64,000 bases of DNA, taken from contig NZ_JAOTJC010000013.1 of the NCBI RefSeq assembly GCF_025628895.1, forward strand, positions 76,161 to 140,160. The letters run 5' to 3'. Below, piece after piece: positions 22,883-35,669 of the stretch. The position numbers and the translations under genes were made by a program. Within the stretch, counting starts at the first letter, position 1. Each line of letters begins with the position of its first letter. The stretch is from Alteromonas salexigens (lineage in GTDB: Bacteria > Pseudomonadota > Gammaproteobacteria > Enterobacterales > Alteromonadaceae). The notes beneath the pieces were generated by a model, which was given only the letters and a program-made list of their open reading frames with translations, did no database searches and was not told the origin of the DNA.

Positions 22883-24298
22883 TTAGGGAAGCGTTTTAGT
22901 TGAGCTTGCAATAGATATTGTTTTGGCACCTCTTGATAAAGCGACATATAAATTTTGTCTATTCATGTTGCTGACATCAATAATTAAACTGTGATCGGCT
23001 TCCAAGCCCTTAAGCAATAAAGTACTACCAATAGCCAAATTTGGAATACGGGTATCACCTCGTTGACGCAGACTTTCTCTGGATCTCTCCATGCCTTGCT
23101 TGAAGCTCAAGGATGGTTCACAAACAACGCTATTAACGGCTCTATTTAATGCTCTGAATGCCGCTCGTCGATAGATTCTAACATTATTGTCAGCTTCAAC
23201 AGCATTCATAATTACCAAAAAATTAGCGGCTGTTTTCGAATGAATGAATGCAACTATTGCAGCTTCAGTCGGGGTTGGTCCGCTTCTGTTTCTGCCCGCT
23301 ATTATTGTCTTTATTCTTGGAACCCAAGTTGAAGCTCCCATTCCTGTGGCCAATGCTCCAAAAATATTGATTACACTGATCACTAATTGTTCACCCAGTT
23401 CAACGTCTAATTGTCCAGTGAAGGCAACTAAATCTCTTAAATCAACGGGTTCAACCACATCAATCCCGTTATTTTGACTCGCATATAAATGTCTTGAGTT
23501 CGTGTTGATTGAGTCGCCAATAACTAGCAAAGAATCTTGGGGATAAATGTTCCTAAGGTGATACTGTGCTGCACTCTTAAGGCGCATATTTTCTTGATGA
23601 TTTCTGCTCAGTTGAATATGTGATACAGAGCTAGGGCTATGTGTTAAATCAATACTGCTATTGGCTATCAATCTCCTGCGGCATTCCAGCACCCACTCAC
23701 CTAGCTCTTGGTTTTGTGCATTTATCCAGCGCCAAGGTGTATTCAACTCTGTTAGCAGCGGGAAATGATTTAAAACCTCTGCTTGCCAATTTGGAATCTG
23801 CGTGCCTCGAAAATTGAAGATCAACTGCATTGGATCCCCTAAAACTGTAGTTGGAATACACTGTGCAATAGAGCAAACGATATTATGTTGTTCTTGGTTA
23901 CAATCTTGGTATTCATCAACAATCAGTCGTGAATATGATGCCCTGATCACTTCGTGCAGACTTCCAGAAGCCAAATAACGACTCACTACATTTCTTAATT
24001 CAGGGTAATACGTTTGAGAATTTTCAACATGTGATGCTATTTGACAATTGTGGCTAAAACTACTCGCGATTCTCACCGACCAGCCATCGATCGTCGACAA
24101 TACATAATTCTTTGCTGGTACATTTGCCCTAGTTAGCCTCTTTCGAAGAGCTGCAACGCCAGCAGTAGTATGGGTTAATACAAGATATGGCTTAACGGGT
24201 GTAACAGCCAACGCTTCAACTATAAGTTGAGTCTTTCCACATCCTGCTGGAGCTTCAATAGCACCAATTTCATTTTCTAGTACGATTGCTGCTGACAC
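22883..24298 (-). CDS. gajB: GajB: UvrD-like helicase of a Gabija system
   Basis: 471 residues, the usual GajB length. The superfamily 1 helicase motifs are present: Walker A EAPAGCGKTQ (16-24), motif II DEYQDCNQEQHN (~131), LGDPMQLIF (motif III) and VALSRG near the C-terminus (motif VI). In Gabija, GajB senses DNA termini or depleted nucleotides and activates GajA. It starts 9 bases after the gajA stop, so the pair is coupled. The order gajA-gajB matches known Gabija loci. Confidence 0.92.
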   Translation of the reverse strand: MSAAIVLENEIGAIEAPAGCGKTQLIVEALAVTPVKPYLVLTHTTAGVAALRKRLTRANVPAKNYVLSTIDGWSVRIASSFSHNCQIASHVENSQTYYPELRNVVSRYLASGSLHEVIRASYSRLIVDEYQDCNQEQHNIVCSIAQCIPTTVLGDPMQLIFNFRGTQIPNWQAEVLNHFPLLTELNTPWRWINAQNQELGEWVLECRRRLIANSSIDLTHSPSSVSHIQLSRNHQENMRLKSAAQYHLRNIYPQDSLLVIGDSINTNSRHLYASQNNGIDVVEPVDLRDLVAFTGQLDVELGEQLVISVINIFGALATGMGASTWVPRIKTIIAGRNRSGPTPTEAAIVAFIHSKTAANFLVIMNAVEADNNVRIYRRAAFRALNRAVNSVVCEPSLSFKQGMERSRESLRQRGDTRIPNLAIGSTLLLKGLEADHSLIIDVSNMNRQNLYVALSRGAKTISIASSTKTLP

Positions 24299-24307
24299 TT
24301 TCAGTCC

Positions 24308-26017
24308 CTATTGTCGTGCCCACGCAAGAAGGTCATCTAATACTTGAGTAAATGCAGGCTCTATGAATAGTTTGTTAGGCCAAAGAACAGTTTCAGCAAC
24401 GTTTTCCATAGGCTCAATGTCTTTATACCACTCTTTTTTCTTTGCTGTTATACCAAGATACGGTCGATAAGCATCCTGAGGAGTCTGGATACAACTTATG
24501 AGATTAAACTGACTTTCAGTTGCGTTGATAATGTGCGTATTTACGGCATCATTAGTTTTTCTCTCAATCGCAATATTTAACAGTTGAGGGATGAGATGGA
24601 GGTGACAATTATTAAATATTGCCTGCTCAGTGGCTTGGTTTTCACCCCATTCAAACATAGGTATGCTCAGTCGTATTGCTTCGGTGATGGATGCCTGCTG
24701 CTGATCATTGATATCTGAATCTTTAAATATTGCAACAGGGTAACCTAACTCATTAAAGACCTTGGCTCGCTTAAACATATGACTTCCGCCGCCATCTGCG
24801 TGCATAACACCAAGTGATTGGATGCTATGCTGCCCCTGTACCTGTTCAACAGCATCAACACCTTTTAAAAGTCCAATTTCTGTTTTCCCTTCGCAGACTA
24901 TTACTTTATTACTCAAGAATGCTTCAGCACATACTCGCAAAGTCGATTGATGCTCGTCGCTATCATTCATTGAATATATAACGTGATTAATTTGAGGTTG
25001 CCCAGTTATTGAATACTTTCTCAAAATATGTAGTTGCGACGACTTTAATTCTCGGAGAACATAAGGAGAGTGCGTTGTAATAAATACTTGCTGTGTTGGT
25101 TGCTGTTCTTTTGCTCCTATCTCTTTAAGCAAACGGCTAATTCTAAATGGTTCTAGACCGAATTCTACCTCATCAATTATCAACAGTTTTGAGTTGGAAA
25201 CCAATTTTTGAAGTCCCGCTAAAAGCAACCTAGTTGAACCAGTACCCATTTGTCTAATTGGCGTTGAGTTAGCATCATGTAAGCTCACTGCACCATGCGA
25301 GACTGAAACACTCGACACATCAAGTAAAGCTTTAAGCTCACCTACATTTACGCCGAGCGTATCTGCTACACCTTGAACACTTGCAAGGGCACTATGAATC
25401 CCATCCACATTTTGCTGTGCAAAGGCTTGTCTGGCGTTGCGAGAAACTTCGGTAAGAACTTCACTTACGTCAAATCTATCATCTAATAGTTTGTTTAGAA
25501 GTGAGTTACGTCCCCACGTAAAATGGCGAGATGAGCCTTCCCCTAATCTAGTGGGTGATATTAACTCCCTGTGACTCCAAGGAAGTCGCTTCTCTAATCC
25601 TTCCTGAGCAGCGCGATCTGAATATAAGCCCCAGTCTGGATCCAAACCTTTATCCACTACTAACCTAACTGTAATAACAGTTTCAGCGCCTACTTGAGGC
25701 TCATCATACAACTCCTGAGTAGTAAGATTGTAAGAACGGAGAAAACTGCCATAGCGCTCAATGCTTAGAAGTTCATCACTTAAGCGTCCCAAAGTGACAT
25801 AGATTTCAATTGGGTTATCAACATTGGAATTATGGAAGTCAGCATCTGTAAAACTAATATTGCGTCTAGCACCGAGACAAAGGTCAATTGCATCAAGGAC
25901 GGAAGATTTTCCCGAATCACCGGGCCCAATTACACAATTTATGCCTTCGATTGGATACCAATCTAGAGATTGAATACCTCTGAAATTACGTATAGCGATG
26001 TGACGAATAATCGACAT
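24308..26017 (-). CDS. gajA: GajA: OLD-family ATPase-TOPRIM nuclease of a Gabija system
   Basis: 569 residues. N-terminal ABC-type ATPase: Walker A GPGDSGKSS (31-39), signature MGTGSTRLLLAGL (~255), Walker B LLIIDEVEFGLE (~278). C-terminal TOPRIM: VIVCEGKTE (Glu ~377) and IFKDSDI (~432). GajA is a sequence-specific DNA nickase inhibited by nucleotides; phage depletion of NTP releases it. Length and the following helicase make the assignment firm. It lies 185 bases after an unknown 153-residue gene. Confidence 0.93.
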   Translation of the reverse strand: MSIIRHIAIRNFRGIQSLDWYPIEGINCVIGPGDSGKSSVLDAIDLCLGARRNISFTDADFHNSNVDNPIEIYVTLGRLSDELLSIERYGSFLRSYNLTTQELYDEPQVGAETVITVRLVVDKGLDPDWGLYSDRAAQEGLEKRLPWSHRELISPTRLGEGSSRHFTWGRNSLLNKLLDDRFDVSEVLTEVSRNARQAFAQQNVDGIHSALASVQGVADTLGVNVGELKALLDVSSVSVSHGAVSLHDANSTPIRQMGTGSTRLLLAGLQKLVSNSKLLIIDEVEFGLEPFRISRLLKEIGAKEQQPTQQVFITTHSPYVLRELKSSQLHILRKYSITGQPQINHVIYSMNDSDEHQSTLRVCAEAFLSNKVIVCEGKTEIGLLKGVDAVEQVQGQHSIQSLGVMHADGGGSHMFKRAKVFNELGYPVAIFKDSDINDQQQASITEAIRLSIPMFEWGENQATEQAIFNNCHLHLIPQLLNIAIERKTNDAVNTHIINATESQFNLISCIQTPQDAYRPYLGITAKKKEWYKDIEPMENVAETVLWPNKLFIEPAFTQVLDDLLAWARQ

Positions 26018-27093: not shown

Positions 27094-28827
27094 TCAATGT
27101 GATCTCTGAGATCGCAAGAGCCTGTCCATCAAAGTCCAAATTATCAATAACGACGTTTCGATATTTGCAACTTCAGCATGCTTTACATCACCGTTGCCTT
27201 CTGAGCCGTGAATTATTGGTAACTTGTTTCGAACGCTTTTACAGGATTCATATTTAGATAAAAGGTTTGAATCAAACTGAGAATCAATGCACTCCAACGT
27301 ATCGTCTATTATTTTTGTATGACGTCCCTTGGTGTCTTTTTTAACTCTTTTAGATGAGTACAGCGTTAACTTTTCCGTCGTGTTATTCCAAAGAAATTTT
27401 TCTATTTCATTAAATAGCTCCATTGTTCCAAGGAATATTCTGTCATTAACGCTTTTTTCATCAATACCCTGCCATAACATCCATGTAACTGAGTGTTGAG
27501 TTTCTACAAAAAAGTTTCGAGTTCTCCGTTGAAAAGGCGTTCCGGTAAAAGGCTGCTTTTGACAGATTTCATCGAGAATTCTCGCAATAGCAAACACTCT
27601 GCAATAGCGTACCTGACGAAGTCCGCTTGTCATCTTCTCAACAAACTGACAGTAGATATCCATTGCAGTCGCTACGGCATGAGAATTAGCATTATTAGAA
27701 CTTTCATCTGATTTACGCCAATATGCCATCGCTCCTTTCTTTATAGCCTTTTCAAGATTCCAGAGTTTGTTGGAAGCAGATGCTATTAAGACAGGAAGCC
27801 CGGGAACGGCATTTAAGAGAGATTCAACGACTGCAAAGCCGCTCAGATCGTCAGAATCATAGTTTTCAAAAGCAGACTCGTGTTCAGATAATCTTAAGTC
27901 TACTATCGCCAGTTCAGGTAATTTTCCCTCCCCGTGCAATTGAGACATCTTCAAAAACAATTCAACGTCAGCCTGACTATTAAAACATCGAATATCGGCA
28001 TTTATATCAGCCAACATGCTGTCTACCAATTGGTACCAACCATCTGCATGCTGATCATCAACAAACCAAATTTGTAAACTTTCACTACTTTCGAATACGT
28101 CACTTGAGAGATGAAATGTCTCATGCAAGTCATTGTAAAAAGACATGACAGGAGTGCTCTGACTCATGGACCTCTTTACATGACTCCACGTAGTTGTGAG
28201 TACTCTTCTCTTTTTTAAACAAATCTGTATTTTTCTATTAATAAAAGCTCTGAGATCTCCGCTGTGCAACTCATCCCATCGTTCGAGAATCTCCCACATC
28301 ATCATGGCGTTTTCCTGATTGTGCAAAAAAGAACAGGCGCTATGTAATGTTAGCTTGGAAGTCTCATTGAACAGAGTAAGGTCGCCTTCAACTTTTTGCA
28401 GTTCAAGCAGATCGAGTACTAATGAGAGTAATACGGCACCTCTGATATTTTTAACAGCATGCGGATCTAATAAAGACGCTGGTTGCTCAGGCATGTCATT
28501 GCAATCAAAGATTAGCGACTGATCATCTCTAAGAGCACCCGTTTCTTTTTCTACTTTCTCAATGATTGCGTCATCTACGTCGGAAAAAGCAATAGTAAAC
28601 AACCGAAGGTTGGAAGATTCGAGACCTTGTACTAACTTCAACAATGTCTTGAATTTATCTACAAAAAGCCCTTGCTGACATTGGTTCAGATTAGAGATGT
28701 TAATCACACACTCTTCAGAAGTTAAGTTGCGTTTCAGCAACCGGAGTAAATTAAAAGGGTTAAATTGACCTGAATGATTGAAAAGAAATTTACTATGCTT
28801 TGAAGTAAGTTTTAAATCAAATGTCAT
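27094..28827 (-). CDS. Retron-operon effector candidate: central receiver domain and C-terminal HEPN-like motif
   Basis: 577 residues from the ATG at 28827, chosen over 28857 because only two bases separate it from the previous stop and GGGAAG lies before it. Residues about 1-240 are of unknown fold. Residues about 250-390 form an intact receiver: WFVDDQ, LAIVDLRLSEH with the phospho-acceptor Asp (~310), LIASAS and the Lys in AYWRKSD (~372). The C-terminal part contains SVRNKLPIIHGSE, an R-N-x5-H (R-x6-H) motif, then a hydrophobic helix IIWTLMDRLL, the signature of HEPN RNase domains. Inferred role: toxic RNase restrained by its partners. No kinase is in the operon. HEPN assignment is by motif only. 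Confidence 0.7.
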   Translation of the reverse strand: MTFDLKLTSKHSKFLFNHSGQFNPFNLLRLLKRNLTSEECVINISNLNQCQQGLFVDKFKTLLKLVQGLESSNLRLFTIAFSDVDDAIIEKVEKETGALRDDQSLIFDCNDMPEQPASLLDPHAVKNIRGAVLLSLVLDLLELQKVEGDLTLFNETSKLTLHSACSFLHNQENAMMMWEILERWDELHSGDLRAFINRKIQICLKKRRVLTTTWSHVKRSMSQSTPVMSFYNDLHETFHLSSDVFESSESLQIWFVDDQHADGWYQLVDSMLADINADIRCFNSQADVELFLKMSQLHGEGKLPELAIVDLRLSEHESAFENYDSDDLSGFAVVESLLNAVPGLPVLIASASNKLWNLEKAIKKGAMAYWRKSDESSNNANSHAVATAMDIYCQFVEKMTSGLRQVRYCRVFAIARILDEICQKQPFTGTPFQRRTRNFFVETQHSVTWMLWQGIDEKSVNDRIFLGTMELFNEIEKFLWNNTTEKLTLYSSKRVKKDTKGRHTKIIDDTLECIDSQFDSNLLSKYESCKSVRNKLPIIHGSEGNGDVKHAEVANIETSLLIIWTLMDRLLRSQRSH

Positions 28828-28829
28828 TA

Positions 28830-29198
28830 TCAAGCTTCCCGCTTGATTGATTGACAACGCTCGATAAATTCAGGCAATACTTTTTCAAAGTAATCACTAT
28901 CAATACTGAAGTAAGGTCTCCCGGTGCCACTTTGTCGCAGATAGGGAGTACTATCGACAGAACCCGAGTAGACCATCATTGGCCAATTATTCTTTTTAGC
29001 GAAGTGGTTTACGATGTCATATCCAGTCATACCCGAATGGCATATGACACCATCAATTTTCAACGACGCAATGTAATCGACGTCAACTGTTTCACAAACT
29101 TCGATTATATTTCCATAGCCCAACCGTTCAATCTTTTCCTTAAACGACGAATTACGCTCGGGACGTCGATCGTCGTCCATGTAGATAATTCTAAGCAT
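28830..29198 (-). CDS. Degenerate stand-alone receiver domain protein
   Basis: 122 residues in the order of a receiver domain: N-terminal acidic cluster IYMDDD (8-10), the strand IDGVICHSGMTGYDIV where His 54 occupies the place of the phospho-acceptor Asp, VYSGS with the Ser, and no Lys at the final site (GTGRPYFSID). It therefore cannot take phosphate in the normal way. The ATG directly follows the RT stop (no gap) and its TGA is two bases before the next ATG, so it is tightly coupled to both. Likely an adaptor or decoy holding the receiver of the following protein (inference). Confidence 0.75.
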   Translation of the reverse strand: MLRIIYMDDDRRPERNSSFKEKIERLGYGNIIEVCETVDVDYIASLKIDGVICHSGMTGYDIVNHFAKKNNWPMMVYSGSVDSTPYLRQSGTGRPYFSIDSDYFEKVLPEFIERCQSIKREA

Positions 29199-31616
29199 TT
29201 AGTCTTTAAACTCTCTTAGGGTAAACATTAACCTTCCTTTTTTCGCATCTACAGCTACAGACGCTTTGTGAAATGAATGCTCTGTCAGATTTACAATAAT
29301 ATTTTCCAACACACTTTTGCTGTTACGTTCTTTAAAGCTCCCATGAACTAAAAGATCTCCCACAGGTAAAAATTCCCTAGCAGCAGAAGTTAGATCTCCA
29401 CCAGCGATCCATTTTTTGACTAGACCCGAGTCTGATGCCATATCTATTTTCGGCATTTTGCTGAATGGCAGTCCTGTATCTCGCCTGAATATTTGCAAAC
29501 ATCTAGGCTCTTTGGTTTCCGGATCCTCGTTAATAAAACAGAGCACATACGGCTTATTAGCCGATGATGTTCTCACCCTTTCACTATCAGCCATATGCTG
29601 CTTAATACTATCAAGAACCTTCTTTAACGAATCTCGCCACGCTTTAATATCTGTGACGACTCTGTCTTCCATGTTACTTCTATCGATTTCAACAGCGTTC
29701 TCCATACCCGCGGCAGATACAGCGGGCAAAGCAATTTGTTGATAAAAGTTGTCAGTATCATTTTCATAAAGTCGTACAGCAGATTTTAAATCACGAATTG
29801 CTTGTACTGCTTTAGCCGATTGCTTAGATGGTTTTTCAATATTAATGCGAACATCATCTCCATTGCTTCGCAGCAGGTTAAGAAGCTCTTTATGAGTATT
29901 TGATAGCTTCTGTTTTAAGGTTTTTGAAAGATATCTAAAGTTTTGGGCAACTGACTCAGACAAATTGTCAACAAGCTGTTTCACACTATGTCCATCTCCA
30001 TTAGTGCTTTTGTGAAAAAGATCGTCCAGCGGGTACATATTCAATTTTTGACAAACAACACGTTGTTTTTTGGGATCTGGCCAACCTTGTTCGACTAGCA
30101 TCTTAATTTTATCCAGATCAAAGGAAGAATGAGACTTACAATGCACTATCAATGCTCTCTGTAAATTTTGAGGCGCACTGTTAAAGAAGGTCTCATAACG
30201 AGATTTGTCTGACTTTAATTTATCGGCTTGCTCTTTAAGGCTTTTTTCTTGTTCAGATAGTAAGCCACTATCCAAAGCCAGATAGGGCTGAGTCTTTATT
30301 AGGGATTGAAGGTGAGTAAGCTTATTGGCGAGCCTAAGCACTACGTGTTCAACAGGCCACTCAAATTTCATCGCAATGCGATAAAATGCTCCTAGCATCT
30401 CTTCATATTTTTTTATTCGGGCATACTGTTTCGGAGAAATTGAACGTCTCTTGTCCAAATCATAGGGCGAGTTAACTGCCGTACACACAACTTGCCCGTA
30501 CCAATGAATTCTTCCCAACAGATGCAGAGCATAAATTTTGTGCATTTCATCTTCTGTTATTGGCTTAGGATGCTTGACTCCCTTAGATGGTGAACGTAAA
30601 AAACGCCCGAGCGTTCCGTTTTTAAAAAAACCAATGGGCAAAAATGCATCAAATGCTCTTTTATTTTTTAGCTTCCAAAATTCCAATATCGACTTCTCAA
30701 CTGAGTCATATTTGTGCTCGAGGTTGTAAAGTGTCGCTCTGAGTGCGTCCACATGTTTTTTATGCAAATTTAGTCCATCATTAACCACTATCCCCGTTAC
30801 CATCTGACGCGTACTTCGATACATTATTTTTGTTTTGGCCTCATTGATTTGAAAGCCATTTCTTCGCACATGACGAGTTACTTCATCTATTATTTTTTGT
30901 GGGGATATCCGCTTTACATTGTTGGTCGATATCGTCAAGTCATCGGCGTAACGCGTATAAGTTAAATCATATTTTGCTGCAAACTTTCCAAGCTGATAAT
31001 CCAACTTTTTGCAGATAAGGTTTGAAAGCAAAGGGGAACTAGGGGCGCCTTGCGGTAACCCTCTGTTGATATCAATCTCTTTTGGCAGACAAACTAAAGA
31101 TGCAGCTACAGCCGCCTGACGATGACTAAAACCATATGGCTTTTTAATGAGCATCCCAACTATTCTAGGGAAGGTAATAGAAGGGAAAAAATCTTTAAGG
31201 TCGATGCTTATCACGACCTTTTTTCCAGTATGTGCCAACGCATTACTCACGACACCCCTAGGCCTGTCTACGCCGCTGACGGATTCAACATCCTGATCAT
31301 CTTTGAGCGGTTTTACTGAATTTGCGGAGACAAAGCCGTAGGCATACTGTGAAACGTCATGATTTTTCTCAAGATACTTTCTCAGTTTGGACTGATACTC
31401 TTTAAGCTTGTGGTCAACTGTGACTAGCTGCCTTTCAGTACCATTGCGCTTTTTGATGGAAAAGGTTTTATAGTGTTTCTTTGTTATTGGCCAACACCCA
31501 TTTTTCGATAGCAGTTTGGTATCAAAAACAGGTTCACTCGCTAGCAACTCTTCTAGCAATGAAAAGATGTCTTGTTCTTTTTCTGTATTTTTCGAAGTTG
31601 GTTTAATTATTTTCAT
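29199..31616 (-). CDS. Retron-type reverse transcriptase with a long C-terminal extension
   Basis: 805 residues. The RT core is within 45-300: NALAH (125-129, the retron NAxxH motif), IDLKDFFPSI with catalytic Asp 139, GLPQGAPSSP (187-195), YADD (223-226) with both catalytic Asp, and VTG (273-275), the two retron-specific motifs being NAxxH and VTG. Retron RTs are usually 300-400 residues; here about 500 further residues follow, helical to ~690, then a mixed domain to the end, without a motif I can name. The last 40 residues (VLENIIVNLTEHSFH...) weakly resemble the N-box of histidine-kinase ATPase domains, but lack the following D-x-G-x-G. It lies 15 bases after the a2 repeat of the predicted ncRNA. 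Confidence 0.9.
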   Translation of the reverse strand: MKIIKPTSKNTEKEQDIFSLLEELLASEPVFDTKLLSKNGCWPITKKHYKTFSIKKRNGTERQLVTVDHKLKEYQSKLRKYLEKNHDVSQYAYGFVSANSVKPLKDDQDVESVSGVDRPRGVVSNALAHTGKKVVISIDLKDFFPSITFPRIVGMLIKKPYGFSHRQAAVAASLVCLPKEIDINRGLPQGAPSSPLLSNLICKKLDYQLGKFAAKYDLTYTRYADDLTISTNNVKRISPQKIIDEVTRHVRRNGFQINEAKTKIMYRSTRQMVTGIVVNDGLNLHKKHVDALRATLYNLEHKYDSVEKSILEFWKLKNKRAFDAFLPIGFFKNGTLGRFLRSPSKGVKHPKPITEDEMHKIYALHLLGRIHWYGQVVCTAVNSPYDLDKRRSISPKQYARIKKYEEMLGAFYRIAMKFEWPVEHVVLRLANKLTHLQSLIKTQPYLALDSGLLSEQEKSLKEQADKLKSDKSRYETFFNSAPQNLQRALIVHCKSHSSFDLDKIKMLVEQGWPDPKKQRVVCQKLNMYPLDDLFHKSTNGDGHSVKQLVDNLSESVAQNFRYLSKTLKQKLSNTHKELLNLLRSNGDDVRINIEKPSKQSAKAVQAIRDLKSAVRLYENDTDNFYQQIALPAVSAAGMENAVEIDRSNMEDRVVTDIKAWRDSLKKVLDSIKQHMADSERVRTSSANKPYVLCFINEDPETKEPRCLQIFRRDTGLPFSKMPKIDMASDSGLVKKWIAGGDLTSAAREFLPVGDLLVHGSFKERNSKSVLENIIVNLTEHSFHKASVAVDAKKGRLMFTLREFKD

Positions 31617-31631
31617 TATTCAATTGAGGTC

Positions 31632-31826
31632 GCGCTTCCCCAGATTACTCATCGCGCTTGCGCGAAAATTGTCCTATAGTGTCACTCATGTATTCTCATG
31701 AATGTTAGATATTACATAACGCTACGTGTAACACGTAACAAGCCAATTGCCTGATTCGGAGTAAGTGAGCAACAAGTGCTCAATTACCCTACTACAGACA
31801 ACGACTTAACTAATCTGGAGAAGCGC
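31632..31826 (-). ncRNA. Predicted retron msr-msd RNA
   Basis: The segment is bounded by inverted repeats a1 (31809-31826) and a2 (31632-31649). In RNA sense they read GCGCUUCUCCAGAUUAGU and AGUAAUCUGGGGAAGCGC: 16 Watson-Crick pairs, one GU pair and one mismatch of 18. Between them are stem-loops at 31758-31789 (12 pairs with one mismatch), 31723-31737 (TACGTG/CACGTA), 31683-31704 and 31652-31665. Position, length (~195 nt), strand and flanking pair agree with msr-msd next to a retron RT. The branching guanosine and msd limits are not determined. Confidence 0.8.
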
Positions 31827-31887
31827 TTTTAAAGTTTATCAAATTTTTCAGACTGTCTCTTCAATTTTCAGTTTTATTTATGAAGCA

Positions 31888-32289
31888 TTAGACTTGTTTT
31901 GAAAAAACTATTTCAAAGTTATCCGAATCCCATTTTGTTATTGAACCCACCCAATCTATTTTAGGCGAGAACGTGTTCTTATACTTACTGGCGTCCTCAC
32001 CACAAGCAATTGCCTCCGGCGAATTCGTTTTTGCAATAATTGCGCGAACTGTTGCCCCATTTTTAGTTGCTAGATCAAGCTTTTCTCTAAACTCGGAGTT
32101 GCCATTGCCACTCCATCGACTGACTCTATCAACGTACTTCATAGCCCGCTCTCCGTTAACCGTTACCGGCTGAAAGAATTGGTGCCACAGACTCAGTACA
32201 AGCTCACCTTTTTCATTAAATGCCGATACAGACCACTGCACGTTGTTTTGCGTAGCTTTGAATGCCTTGAACGCCTCTGAAATTAACAT
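31888..32289 (-). CDS. Small unknown protein upstream of the retron
   Basis: 133 residues from the second ATG (32289), for which AGGAG has proper spacing; the first ATG would touch it. Mixed alpha/beta sequence with WSVSAFNEKGELVLSLWHQF and a basic middle. No family recognised. It follows the DUF2130 gene by 16 bases and is on the same strand, so it is part of that operon and not necessarily of the retron. Confidence 0.6.
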   Translation of the reverse strand: MLISEAFKAFKATQNNVQWSVSAFNEKGELVLSLWHQFFQPVTVNGERAMKYVDRVSRWSGNGNSEFREKLDLATKNGATVRAIIAKTNSPEAIACGEDASKYKNTFSPKIDWVGSITKWDSDNFEIVFSKQV

Positions 32290-32305
32290 AGCCATCTCCT
32301 TTTAC

Positions 32306-33568
32306 TTAATCCAAAGCACCTATCTGGTCCAATAACGGCATTCCATCATCAGCCAATCCTTGAAGTTCACCGGCCATTGACATCATTTGGTTCGTGATCC
32401 CATCAATTTGCTTTTCGCGCTTGTTCCAAATACGAGTCATGGCATTACGTTCCTTCTCAAGTTCTTCCTTCATGACTCTTTGGTGATCAACCACTGCTTT
32501 TACTCGTTGAAGAAACTGAGGACTGCAAATATAGTCATAGACAGCCTCAATATGTTGTTCACGACCCGTACTAATTACTTTTTGTCTCTGCACTTCAAGT
32601 AATTGCATTCGTAATGCGTCAGCCAAACTTTTAACCAAACTAGGCTTTACTAACCAAATATCGTCTCTTATGACCATCGAGCCCCTTTCTTCTGCCGGGA
32701 ACACTTCTGTTACGATTACACCTATGTTGCCATTAACTGACTGCATGTCTGTTTTAAGCTTACTGATCCAGTTATTACTCCAGTTCTCAGTGCGCTTTGT
32801 TTCCCATACCACTTTCCCACACTCAGTGCCGGAGCGCATTTTCACCGTTTGAATAATGTCAGCACCTCGCGCCCCCGTTTTGACAGCTTCCACTTCGTCT
32901 AAGGGATATTCAGTGGCAAGAAGTGATTCCAGCTCAAGCTCAAGCACTTCACCTTGAAGCTGCTGAGATCCTTGAGCAAGCTTTCGCTTCATCTCTTCAT
33001 TCGCTTTCACGGCATCAGCGAGCTTTTTATTGTATTCAGCCTCTCTTAACTTAAAGCTTTCCTCCAAACTCTCTTGAATAGACTTCTTTTCTTCATCGAG
33101 CTTTCGTGCCACTTCCAGCTCCAAGTTCTTTCGGCTTTCTTCAATAGATGCTTTTTCTTTCCTCAGCTGCATTTCCCTATTCCGAAAATCTGCTATTTGC
33201 TCTTTTTGCATGGCAATGGAATGTTTGAGCTCGTCACTCTCCAGTTTCATATTCTCAATGGCCAATTCTGCTGCCTTTTGCTTTTCTCGCTCAATGCGCT
33301 GCTCCAACCTCTTAGCGGCCTCACCACTATCTTGTAATTGCTGGGTCAGCTCTTCGATTTGGCTTTCCTTGTCTTTTACCAAAGATCGCTCCAACTCCTT
33401 TCGGATCTGTTCTTCCAGCCCAGACTTGGACTCTTCGAGTTGCTTTAAAAAGTCAGTCTCATGCTTCTCTATCAAATGACTTGCGATACCATCTCTCAGT
33501 TGGAACTGTGTATCGCAGTGTGGGCAGGTAATATGGTCGTCGGAGTTGATGATTATTTTGGCGCTCAT
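32306..33568 (-). CDS. DUF2130-family coiled-coil protein with N-terminal zinc finger
   Basis: 420 residues. Residues 15-35 form a C2H2-like finger (CPHCDTQFQLRDGIASHLIEKH). A long coiled coil follows (about 40-210), and the C-terminal domain is DUF2130: LELESLLATEYPLDEVEAV, GADIIQTV, GKVVWETKRTENWSNNWISKLK, where the Glu and Lys in WETKRT resemble a PD-(D/E)XK active site. Such proteins are often in mobile elements; function unknown. It is between the NERD-helicase and the small protein, same strand. Confidence 0.85.
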   Translation of the reverse strand: MSAKIIINSDDHITCPHCDTQFQLRDGIASHLIEKHETDFLKQLEESKSGLEEQIRKELERSLVKDKESQIEELTQQLQDSGEAAKRLEQRIEREKQKAAELAIENMKLESDELKHSIAMQKEQIADFRNREMQLRKEKASIEESRKNLELEVARKLDEEKKSIQESLEESFKLREAEYNKKLADAVKANEEMKRKLAQGSQQLQGEVLELELESLLATEYPLDEVEAVKTGARGADIIQTVKMRSGTECGKVVWETKRTENWSNNWISKLKTDMQSVNGNIGVIVTEVFPAEERGSMVIRDDIWLVKPSLVKSLADALRMQLLEVQRQKVISTGREQHIEAVYDYICSPQFLQRVKAVVDHQRVMKEELEKERNAMTRIWNKREKQIDGITNQMMSMAGELQGLADDGMPLLDQIGALD

Positions 33569-33728: not shown

Positions 33729-35669
33729 TTATTTCATAGCCTTAGAAAAGAAAGGTGAAGCGACACTTCTGCCCCCGCAGTCCAATATCACCAAGTTTTC
33801 CGTTGAGCGAGTGATGGAGGTATAAATAAGTTCTGGCTCATCTTCTTCCAGCATGATGTAAAACACTGTTTTTGCTTCTAATCCCTTATAGCTATGTGTT
33901 GTTGACAGCTTGATGTTGCCTGAATTTGCGTAAAAATGATTTTTCTTTATGCGTCTGACTCGCTCAACCTCACTCGAACTTGCAGAAATCTCTTTATTGA
34001 CTTCATGTTCTGTCATCTGTTCTAGAAGCCCCTGTTCTACACCCAATATCGCAGCTAGCTCCTGATATGTTTCAAACATACAGTGAGTCTTTTCTCTAGC
34101 AGTCAAAAGATCGTTCAACTTTCGCAACGGAAATATTTTTGAACTAATTATGATGGTGTCATTTGGGTGTAAATCATAAGCCTTTATCAGCTCCTGAATC
34201 GTCTCGAATGCTAACTCTACAAAATCTGCGGTTGGCAGCTTTTCATGTTTCAAGAGGCTGAAGCCCATACCCAATTGTTCTGCGGGTGTCTCTATTACGT
34301 CCGTGTCGGAATATTTATCAATCAAAAAGTTGAGCTGGAACTCTTTGAACAATCTATTCAATGGGGAGTCATAACTCGTTCTGTAAGAGCGCGTTAACTT
34401 GTTCCAACGTCCAAAACCTTGAGCTATAACGGCCGACCGGCCTGAGTTTCTTGCGTAGATATCTTGAGAATCATCGCCAAGCAAAACCATTTCACCATCT
34501 TGCTTCAGAAAATTGTCTCTGATTATTTTTACCCACTCAGGCTTATAGTCCTGAATTTCGTCCACGAGCACAGTGTCATACTTCACTGTATCTTTTTCAC
34601 TGAACAAATCTACGTCATACAGTCGCTCCAGACCGTATCGTGCAACAAGCTCTACTATGTCCCGTGATGTGTTATTGAGTTGTGAGTTAAAAAACTGATG
34701 GTAATTTGAGATTTCAAAGCTAGTAAAGTCACGCCCCCCTTGCAGATCGCTAAGTTTATCACGTATGTAATTTTTTAAAGTAATATTGAAAGTAAGTATG
34801 AGCACTTCTGAGCCATGACGACTTCGCGCGTTAATCGCTCTGCTAGCTAAGATGGTCGTTTTTCCGCAACCGGCGACCCCCTTAATCTTTTGCTTACCAT
34901 TATCACTTAAAGTCAAACGTTGCTGTTTATCGTCCAACTTAATATCAATACCCTGTTTGATTTCATGCTCAGATGGACTCAAACGTCGTTTAAAGTCCCT
35001 ATAAACATCTTCGTCAAAGAGAACGTGATTGTCTTGATTTCTGATTTTTTTCACCAGTTTCTGAATGCTGTCGTAGCCAAACGACATCCGTTCATCTCGC
35101 TGGATTTGGCGTTTTTTGTTTAACAAAGACTCATTAACACGCTCATATTTTTCAAAACGAATAGCACCACTGCGATAATCACTTTGAACTTGCTGTCTAT
35201 GCATAGCATTTGAGCTGTGGACTGGCTTATATAACGAGGTTAACTGTTCCTGACCTGCTTTGTGAAAATACACGAAACAATGAACAAGATTGTAAAAGTT
35301 CGGGTTCGTTAAACGGCGAATGCCTACTACGGGAAGATGCAAGTCATAAAGGTTTTTCTTGTAATTAAAGGCTTGTGATTGCGGCGATTTTACTCTCTGT
35401 CTTCCTTGACCGGCCATGACTGACCAAGAGTTTTTATCATCAATTGTGTATAGGCCGAGATCCCAGTCTTTTACTTCAATAACAAACACGCCAATACCCT
35501 TCTTCATTATAATGATGTCAGGGCGGTCACCATCTAGATAAGGATTAAAGAAAACCTCATAGGTCTCGTCTAGGTTTTGCTCCAAATACTTAACTAAATG
35601 CAGCTCGCCATCTGTTGGCGGAACCTTCAATCTTTGAATGTTTTCTAACGTTGGATAAATCGTGGCCAA
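33729..35669 (-). CDS. NERD-domain superfamily 1 helicase
   Basis: 646 residues. N-terminal NERD nuclease-related domain (about 20-110): GDRPDIIIMKKGIGVFVIEVKDW with Asp 51, Glu 65 and Lys 67 as the D...ExK set. Then an SF1 helicase: Walker A GVAGCGKTT (~263), DEIQD (~370), GDDSQDIYA, and a C-terminal TTHSYKGLEAK with SITRSTENLVI. Such NERD-UvrD proteins are frequent in defence islands as nuclease-helicases. It follows the RM operon on the same strand after a 337-base gap and precedes the DUF2130 gene (160 bases). Confidence 0.88.
   Translation of the reverse strand: MATIYPTLENIQRLKVPPTDGELHLVKYLEQNLDETYEVFFNPYLDGDRPDIIIMKKGIGVFVIEVKDWDLGLYTIDDKNSWSVMAGQGRQRVKSPQSQAFNYKKNLYDLHLPVVGIRRLTNPNFYNLVHCFVYFHKAGQEQLTSLYKPVHSSNAMHRQQVQSDYRSGAIRFEKYERVNESLLNKKRQIQRDERMSFGYDSIQKLVKKIRNQDNHVLFDEDVYRDFKRRLSPSEHEIKQGIDIKLDDKQQRLTLSDNGKQKIKGVAGCGKTTILASRAINARSRHGSEVLILTFNITLKNYIRDKLSDLQGGRDFTSFEISNYHQFFNSQLNNTSRDIVELVARYGLERLYDVDLFSEKDTVKYDTVLVDEIQDYKPEWVKIIRDNFLKQDGEMVLLGDDSQDIYARNSGRSAVIAQGFGRWNKLTRSYRTSYDSPLNRLFKEFQLNFLIDKYSDTDVIETPAEQLGMGFSLLKHEKLPTADFVELAFETIQELIKAYDLHPNDTIIISSKIFPLRKLNDLLTAREKTHCMFETYQELAAILGVEQGLLEQMTEHEVNKEISASSSEVERVRRIKKNHFYANSGNIKLSTTHSYKGLEAKTVFYIMLEEDEPELIYTSITRSTENLVILDCGGRSVASPFFSKAMK

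Follow-up and report, generated by a model that had tools for sequence, protein, structure and literature searches.

We regard the operon described here as a likely representative of an undescribed retron type, in which a complex of msDNA and reverse transcriptase (RT) would act as the sensor and signal through a two-component relay to a HEPN effector; we put the probability of this reading at roughly 0.55. The operon lies on the minus strand of a 64,000-nucleotide stretch of Alteromonas salexigens DNA, the whole of which is called the window below. The assembly that contains it comprises 17 contigs and 3.5 Mb, and its rpoB matches that of E. coli at 77% over 3000 of 3000 bases, as would be expected of a gammaproteobacterium. 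Comparison of the window with its relatives establishes the parts of the family, their order and conservation, the covariation of the RNA arms and the intactness of the receiver residues. Whether these loci, found mainly in Bacteroidota, work as phosphorelay retrons is in our estimate an even bet; in such systems msDNA-RT would feed a histidine kinase, the HEPN RNase would be gated by a receiver, and a receiver bearing a His would serve as a buffer, a phosphotransfer intermediate or an end-processing enzyme.

In transcription order, the window operon consists of an intergenic RNA region (31617-31887, minus strand), an RT open reading frame (ORF) of 805 aa, an ORF of 122 aa and an ORF of 587 aa. 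The RT ORF abuts the 122-aa ORF, which in turn overlaps the 587-aa ORF. The RNA region contains the following elements:

31632 to 31826, minus strand: predicted msr-msd noncoding RNA (ncRNA), 195 nt, with a closing a1/a2 helix (z = -7.7; position-restricted p = 0.0004)
31809 to 31826, minus strand: a1, the 5' arm of the RNA, forming 16 Watson-Crick pairs and one G-U pair over 18 positions with a2
31632 to 31649, minus strand: a2, the 3' arm of the RNA, ending 15 nt ahead of the RT ATG (31616)
31810, minus strand: candidate branching guanosine, the unpaired G following the 16-bp a1 helix (...GAUUA-G)

The first-pass annotation had described a repeat of 16 Watson-Crick pairs, one G-U pair and one mismatch over 18 positions, separated from the RT ATG by 15 bases and enclosing four stems. 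A recount on the minus strand agrees with this pairing (the mismatch is G-G), the gap between a2 and the ATG is the same, and the predicted fold contains four stem-loop domains inside arms that close as 16 bp, a mismatch and then 3 bp. The inner 16 nt of the arms were also the first inverted repeat returned by a repeat finder, with 94% complementarity. The folding energy of the RNA was -83.1 kcal/mol, and none of 200 dinucleotide shuffles folded as well. The annotation had considered chance unlikely at this position, and this was borne out in a test that placed one arm between -60 and +20 nt of the start and its partner 90 to 400 nt upstream: the repeat score of 39.0 was reached by 1 of 5,000 shuffles (p = 0.0004). 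G31810 is a plausible branching G of the msDNA to judge from its place in the fold, and presumably it resembles the Ec86 a1-G junction. The window RNA had no Rfam match at gathering thresholds, no close relative of it was found, and a simple promoter scan of positions 31550-32350 detected no sigma-70-like site. The repeat had, in addition, been taken to decide for a retron over other RT classes; the retron assignment is supported, but the repeat alone is not decisive, and the RT motifs and the family context weigh equally.

The protein encoded directly downstream of the RNA is listed here with two of its regions, the last of which is discussed further below:

29199 to 31616, minus strand: RT with a long C-terminal extension, 805 aa (RVT_1, 4e-25; RT-Protease_XI, 1e-76)
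30657 to 31616, minus strand: retron RT domain, about aa 1-320 (NAxxH, YADD and VTG motifs; BLASTP match to the RT of L058, a locus in the window's class)
29202 to 29816, minus strand: putative GHKL or histidine-kinase-like region, about aa 601-805, placed tentatively by position, kinship and a low-confidence model

The window RT carries the motifs SNALAH (NAxxH), YADD and VTG, and across 35 RTs including that of the window, NAxxH was present in 33, YxDD in all 35 and VTG in 31. Its best PADLOC match was RT-Protease_XI (best stretch aa 112-385), followed by RT-Toprim_I-C (1e-74) and RT-TIR_XII (2e-74), and the NCBIfam model retron_Ec67_fus matched at 2e-68. These motifs and best-matching models support the assignment of the window RT to the retron RTs. 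In total, 63 models of PADLOC-DB 2.0.0 matched the RT protein, and the 25 matches listed stay within aa 42-387. Among the PADLOC matches listed, RT and effector together fit no single retron type model; the 122-aa protein matched no model in the library, and the 587-aa protein matched SduA only (2e-4). By BLASTP, the window RT aligned with L058 over aa 46-320 at 36% identity (4e-44). The whole window RT as query gave no match in genome contigs, while the same search of viral contigs returned one other RT (L002).

The first RT tree placed the long St85 row inside the family and L035 outside it; rows St85, XIII and XII and one duplicate of I-C were removed before the second tree was built. A branch with 99/96 support sets the 34 family RTs apart, and the window RT forms a long branch outside this clade, with a single clade including the window not being rejected (p-AU 0.265). 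The window is either a divergent member of the family or a receiver module joined to another retron RT.

The family was recognized through the 587-aa protein and its receiver part. Two plasmid relatives of this protein were found, each from Chryseobacterium and each preceded by an RT, in the order RT, 380-aa protein, a protein of about 215 aa and response regulator; the 380-aa protein matches the HisKin-conflict family PF22561 (1e-33). When genomes were scanned with the receiver part, 37 loci were obtained, 36 of which are titled Bacteroidota and one a Rhizobium metagenome-assembled genome (MAG). A retron-type RT lies upstream on the same strand in 33 of the 37, or in 33 of the 34 that are free of contig-end cuts (L013, L037 and L041 are cut; L046 has no RT). 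In these 33 loci the order is retron-type RT, conflict-type histidine kinase and then receiver-HEPN protein; every kinase matches PF22561, 25 of them as a separate gene and 8 fused to the RT (L030, L032, L035, L036, L040, L042, L043 and L044). In the window's class, L058 encodes an RT-kinase of 916 aa, a small receiver of 120 aa and a receiver-HEPN protein of 561 aa that shares the motif RNxLPxIHG with the window. The gene order can be seen to recur across Bacteroidota; within the window's class two genomes show it, each with an RT that is fused or extended. The Rhizobium-titled locus (L024) has an RT that falls inside the Bacteroidota family clade, and it was probably either mis-binned or recently transferred.

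This linkage bears on two other explanations of the operon. It is improbable that kinase, receiver and HEPN protein are an independent Detocs-like defence system in which the retron is a passenger. Such a view could draw on L046 (3125-8215), where a receiver-HEPN protein without an RT stands behind a 908-aa protein that has a receiver at its N-terminus and, in addition, a HerA/TraD-like ATPase, and which suggests that the receiver-HEPN module can take other partners; it could also draw on the kinase system neighbouring retron-Sda1, which functioned without the RT or the ncRNA (PMC12548924). Against it, eight loci of the scan, and L058 as well, encode RT and kinase as a single polypeptide, and an RT is present in 33 of the 34 informative loci. 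Least credible of all the explanations weighed here is that a regulatory hairpin or the remnant of a mobile element accounts for the repeat and that the neighbours of the repeat came together by chance in a defence island. The further defence genes flanking the operon and the negative promoter scan would fit this explanation, whereas an arrangement that is the same in 33 of 34 informative loci, window genes that abut or overlap, recurrent RT-kinase fusions and covarying arms all speak against it.

The RNA element was then followed through the family. At p ≤ 0.05, 23 of the 36 family loci, counting the window, had an upstream repeat at the expected place, versus 14 of 219 control genes from the same loci, and at p ≤ 0.01 the figures were 13 of 36 versus 6 of 219; 13 of the 36 family loci miss the 0.05 level. 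The count leaves aside L002 and L006-L008, which are other retrons (p is 0.006 for L006 and L007, a level that L002 and L008 miss), and contains both L004 and L010, which are copies and neither of which attains 0.05. Arms from 23 relatives had two-sided changes at 18 of 25 positions, including all of positions 0-10. These arms were anchored at a CTTTGA-like motif on the 5' side of a1, because a MAFFT alignment of 17 ncRNAs left the arms out of register; L004 was dropped because it duplicates L010, and the count excludes loci lacking the anchor, one of which is the window. Since the arms had been selected for complementarity, the covariation count is biased, and the position test with control genes serves as the independent check. 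Homologues with arms that fail to covary had been named at the outset as the finding that would overturn the msr-msd reading; examined at the level of the family, the reading survived, with recurring upstream repeats and co-varying arm positions 0-10. The RNAs of three relatives folded with z values of -5.5 to -7.4. The L058 repeat is bulged and fails the ungapped test (p 0.37), and its region folds at z -2.9. Taken as sequences, the related loci do carry an a1/a2-bounded, structured RNA ahead of a retron-type RT.

These RNAs also weigh on the question of whether the RT belongs to a non-retron, defence-associated class, with the structured RNA as a template used without 2'-5' priming and placed before a two-component defence system. 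Structured RNAs are reportedly used by DRT systems as well, and Drt2 was among the weaker NCBIfam matches of the window RT (4e-12). The retron RT models match far better, however, and the RT has both NAxxH and VTG; the closing repeat ends close to the RT start and its arms covary, and TTGA directly past a1 is invariant in all 17 aligned relatives, a subset of the 36 loci selected for the similarity of their RNAs. We hold a non-retron RT to be very improbable.

The presumed effector is encoded by the last gene of the operon:

27094 to 28857, minus strand: receiver-HEPN protein, 587 aa, with the TTG start as listed and provisional (window-free profile, 4.7e-25)
27601 to 28083, minus strand: receiver domain, aa 259-419, with D267, D268, D320 and K382 (invariant in 38 of 38 rows; structure match with Z 14.8)
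27097 to 27600, minus strand: C-terminal helical region with R543 and H550 (RNKLPIIHG), a HEPN-type R-N-x(n)-H motif

The family profile built without the window finds this protein over aa 257-508, and its N-terminus, though without a Pfam match of its own, can be aligned to the iREC part of the relatives. R543 and H550 are, like the four receiver residues, present in all 38 rows. D267 and D268 lie inside a search pattern, and D320, K382, R543 and H550 lie outside both patterns; because two receiver patterns served to select the 37 loci, invariance within those patterns reflects selection. Response_reg was matched in 37 of the 38 rows (all except the window) and iREC (PF22563) in 32. Among 28 C-termini tested at E ≤ 0.1, HEPN families were the two commonest Pfam matches, with HEPN_RiboL-PSP in 4, HEPN_Apea in 3 and HEPN_Swt1 in 1; the window row had none. 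The two structure models made for the window were poor, with mean pLDDT values of 61 and 60, and the best structure match of the receiver model covered 124 residues at an rmsd of 2.2. A search of the PDB with the C-terminal profile found no solved HEPN. In the structure search with the receiver protein, the matches listed are filled by the receiver domain and include no HEPN, which is no evidence against a HEPN assignment.

The extension of the window RT behaved differently from the kinases of its relatives. Its approximately 480 aa have no Pfam match over the cut-off, and the window is the sole exception among 34 kinase rows, 33 of which match PF22561. A family kinase profile built without the window gave no match in the extension at E ≤ 10 (E 71 with L058 added), while profiles that contain the window row do match it and are not independent. 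By the window-free profile the kinase part of L058 was detected at 3.7e-19 over aa 740-914; it keeps its His in the form ITHD and has no Pfam kinase match. BLASTP of the window against L058 past the RT aligned a linker piece (aa 365-486, 27%, 1.7e-5) and left the last 200 residues unaligned. A two-row profile of window and L058 matched the family kinases over 80 columns with E 9e-5 and a probability of 59. When L058 is included in the realignment, 34 of 35 rows have H in the column of the conserved His of the family kinases, where the window has Q510; H496, which an earlier alignment had put forward as this His in the window, was discarded on this account. The model of the extension, with a mean pLDDT of 61 that is higher over the last 200 residues, resembles GHKL kinases (best Z 9.2), but it was built on an alignment containing family kinases and may lean toward GHKL. 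Of the 50 structure matches listed (Z 8.0-9.2), 48 were histidine-kinase-type, PDK or BCKDK entries by title, with DivL being termed a tyrosine kinase; the remaining two were the LvrB CA domain and an entry whose title holds no protein name. Foldseek alone gave no match with E under 0.001.

Wider searches added little to the extension. The C-terminal part as query returned only the window among 295 genomes at the family level and no plasmid match, and a three-row kinase profile returned only the window among 398 genomes at the phylum level. The family kinase profile recovered the window and L058 only among 369 genomes of the window's class. Two weak kinase-profile matches besides the window in 394 genomes of the order were dropped, as their neighbourhoods held no RT or family-receiver match. 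Viral sequences scanned with the receiver and kinase alignments gave no match, and neither did phages searched with the Chryseobacterium kinase.

The designation of a kinase in the window is therefore a tentative one, made from position and kinship and not from the sequence itself, and the copy may be degenerate. Our confidence in the main explanation is lower because window-free kinase profiles miss the extension. A different explanation, which we consider unlikely though more credible than the other three weighed here, is that the extension is a degenerate or replaced kinase that acts as a scaffold and holds the receiver-HEPN protein, as other retrons sequester their effectors. That the window extension alone among 34 rows lacks PF22561, that the window-free profiles miss it and that Q occupies the conserved His column would all be expected of such a scaffold. 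L058, on the other hand, likewise has one long RT protein and keeps both the ITHD His and a detectable kinase part; the window receiver retains D267, D268, D320 and K382, which would be odd without a phosphodonor; and the extension model is GHKL-like, subject to the alignment bias described above.

Between the RT and the receiver-HEPN protein lies the third gene:

28830 to 29198, minus strand: small receiver-like protein, 122 aa (window-free family profile, E 0.0011; cREC_REC, E 0.003)

The cREC_REC match is below the Pfam cut-off and confined to the window row. All 24 small receivers compared, those of the window and its relatives, have His54 and Ser78, and His54 falls at the end of a predicted beta-3, which would be the phospho-Asp place of receivers. 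Among the 33 RT loci, 22 devote a gene of its own to the small receiver and 4 have it as the N-terminus of the receiver protein; in the other 7 it was undetected. Such fusions to the receiver protein occur in L012, L013, L016, L017 and L027, of which L013 is one of the contig-cut loci.

In the relay that we favour, the RT would copy the msd part into msDNA, starting from the G after a1, and the RT-msDNA complex would keep the attached kinase off. A phage product could switch the kinase by binding or damaging the msDNA or by altering a host target that the msDNA monitors. The phosphoryl group would pass to Asp320 of the receiver, a step that in the window might consist of contact only, and the phosphorylated receiver would release or dimerise the HEPN RNase. 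The RNase would cut cellular RNA, so that growth stops (abortive infection). For the small receiver with its His, the likeliest role is that of a buffer, an adaptor or a reset element. A role of the operon in defence is what this scheme would imply.

Among described systems, the window RT domain is most like the models of types XI (RT-protease), XII (RT-TIR) and I-C (RT-Toprim), with which it shares an a1/a2-bounded RNA ahead of the RT and an extra C-terminal module on the RT protein. Unlike those types, the family carries a kinase as this module instead of a protease, TIR or Toprim domain, and its killing domain belongs to a receiver protein that is encoded separately. Type IX retrons (RT, winged-helix and HEPN), for example retron-Kva2, have in common with the family a HEPN-class RNase effector. 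Retron-Kva2 sequesters a HEPN dimer with a non-canonical motif (PMC13405049). The family differs from it in that the HEPN motif R-N-x(n)-H is on the receiver protein and that a kinase stands between RT and effector.

The layout of kinase, stand-alone receiver and receiver-effector is Detocs-like. In Detocs these roles fall to DtcA, DtcB and DtcC. Detocs has been described as a three-gene family with an ATP-degrading PNP (PMC11249213). The family departs from this in having a HEPN-type motif for the PNP, an RT and an RNA as partner, and, in the small receiver, a His at the presumed place of the phospho-Asp. The PADLOC matches listed include no Detocs name, and the library may hold no Detocs models. 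By analogy, the family would work like Detocs with a retron sensor and a HEPN effector; we do not claim that it belongs to Detocs. The Pfam names HisKin-conflict (PF22561), iREC (PF22563) and cREC_REC (PF20274) show that the domains had been noticed in conflict loci; the paper behind these names is reportedly that of Burroughs and Aravind (2020, J Bacteriol). Among the papers listed in a literature search, none, judged on titles and abstract openings, dealt with a retron that has a histidine kinase or receiver. HATPase and REC are among the domain labels in a DefensePredictor figure legend (PMC13092281).

To our knowledge, the effectors of known retrons are held through direct contact with the RT-msDNA complex. 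If the proposed relay is correct, a kinase and a receiver step would add amplification, thresholds and reset to retron signalling, and the way in which an msDNA change reaches an effector would become measurable as a phosphate signal. The fused RT-kinases offer a compact target for structural work, and the family yields some thirty candidate ncRNAs, with a significant repeat in 23 of 36 loci, from which a new msr-msd class could be defined.

Several other genes were seen around these operons. A gene resembling PDC-M16A (a PADLOC candidate) stands behind the operon in 15 of 39 loci (L004, L005, L010, L011, L018-L022, L024-L027, L038 and L045, with L004 and L010 being copies), and a PDC-M16B-like gene is next in 12; the PDC-M16A-like gene is a frequent neighbour or a helper, and it was not seen behind the operon of the window. 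A second retron-like RT lies a few kb behind the operon in two loci (L024:10610-11701 and L045:13149-14261). The window operon itself is flanked by a Gabija-like pair (GajA, 5e-212; GajB, 2e-167) and a NERD-UvrD protein (C3a187, 1e-57), located at 22883-26017 and 33729-35669, as well as by type I restriction genes, and by these gene matches its surroundings are a defence island.
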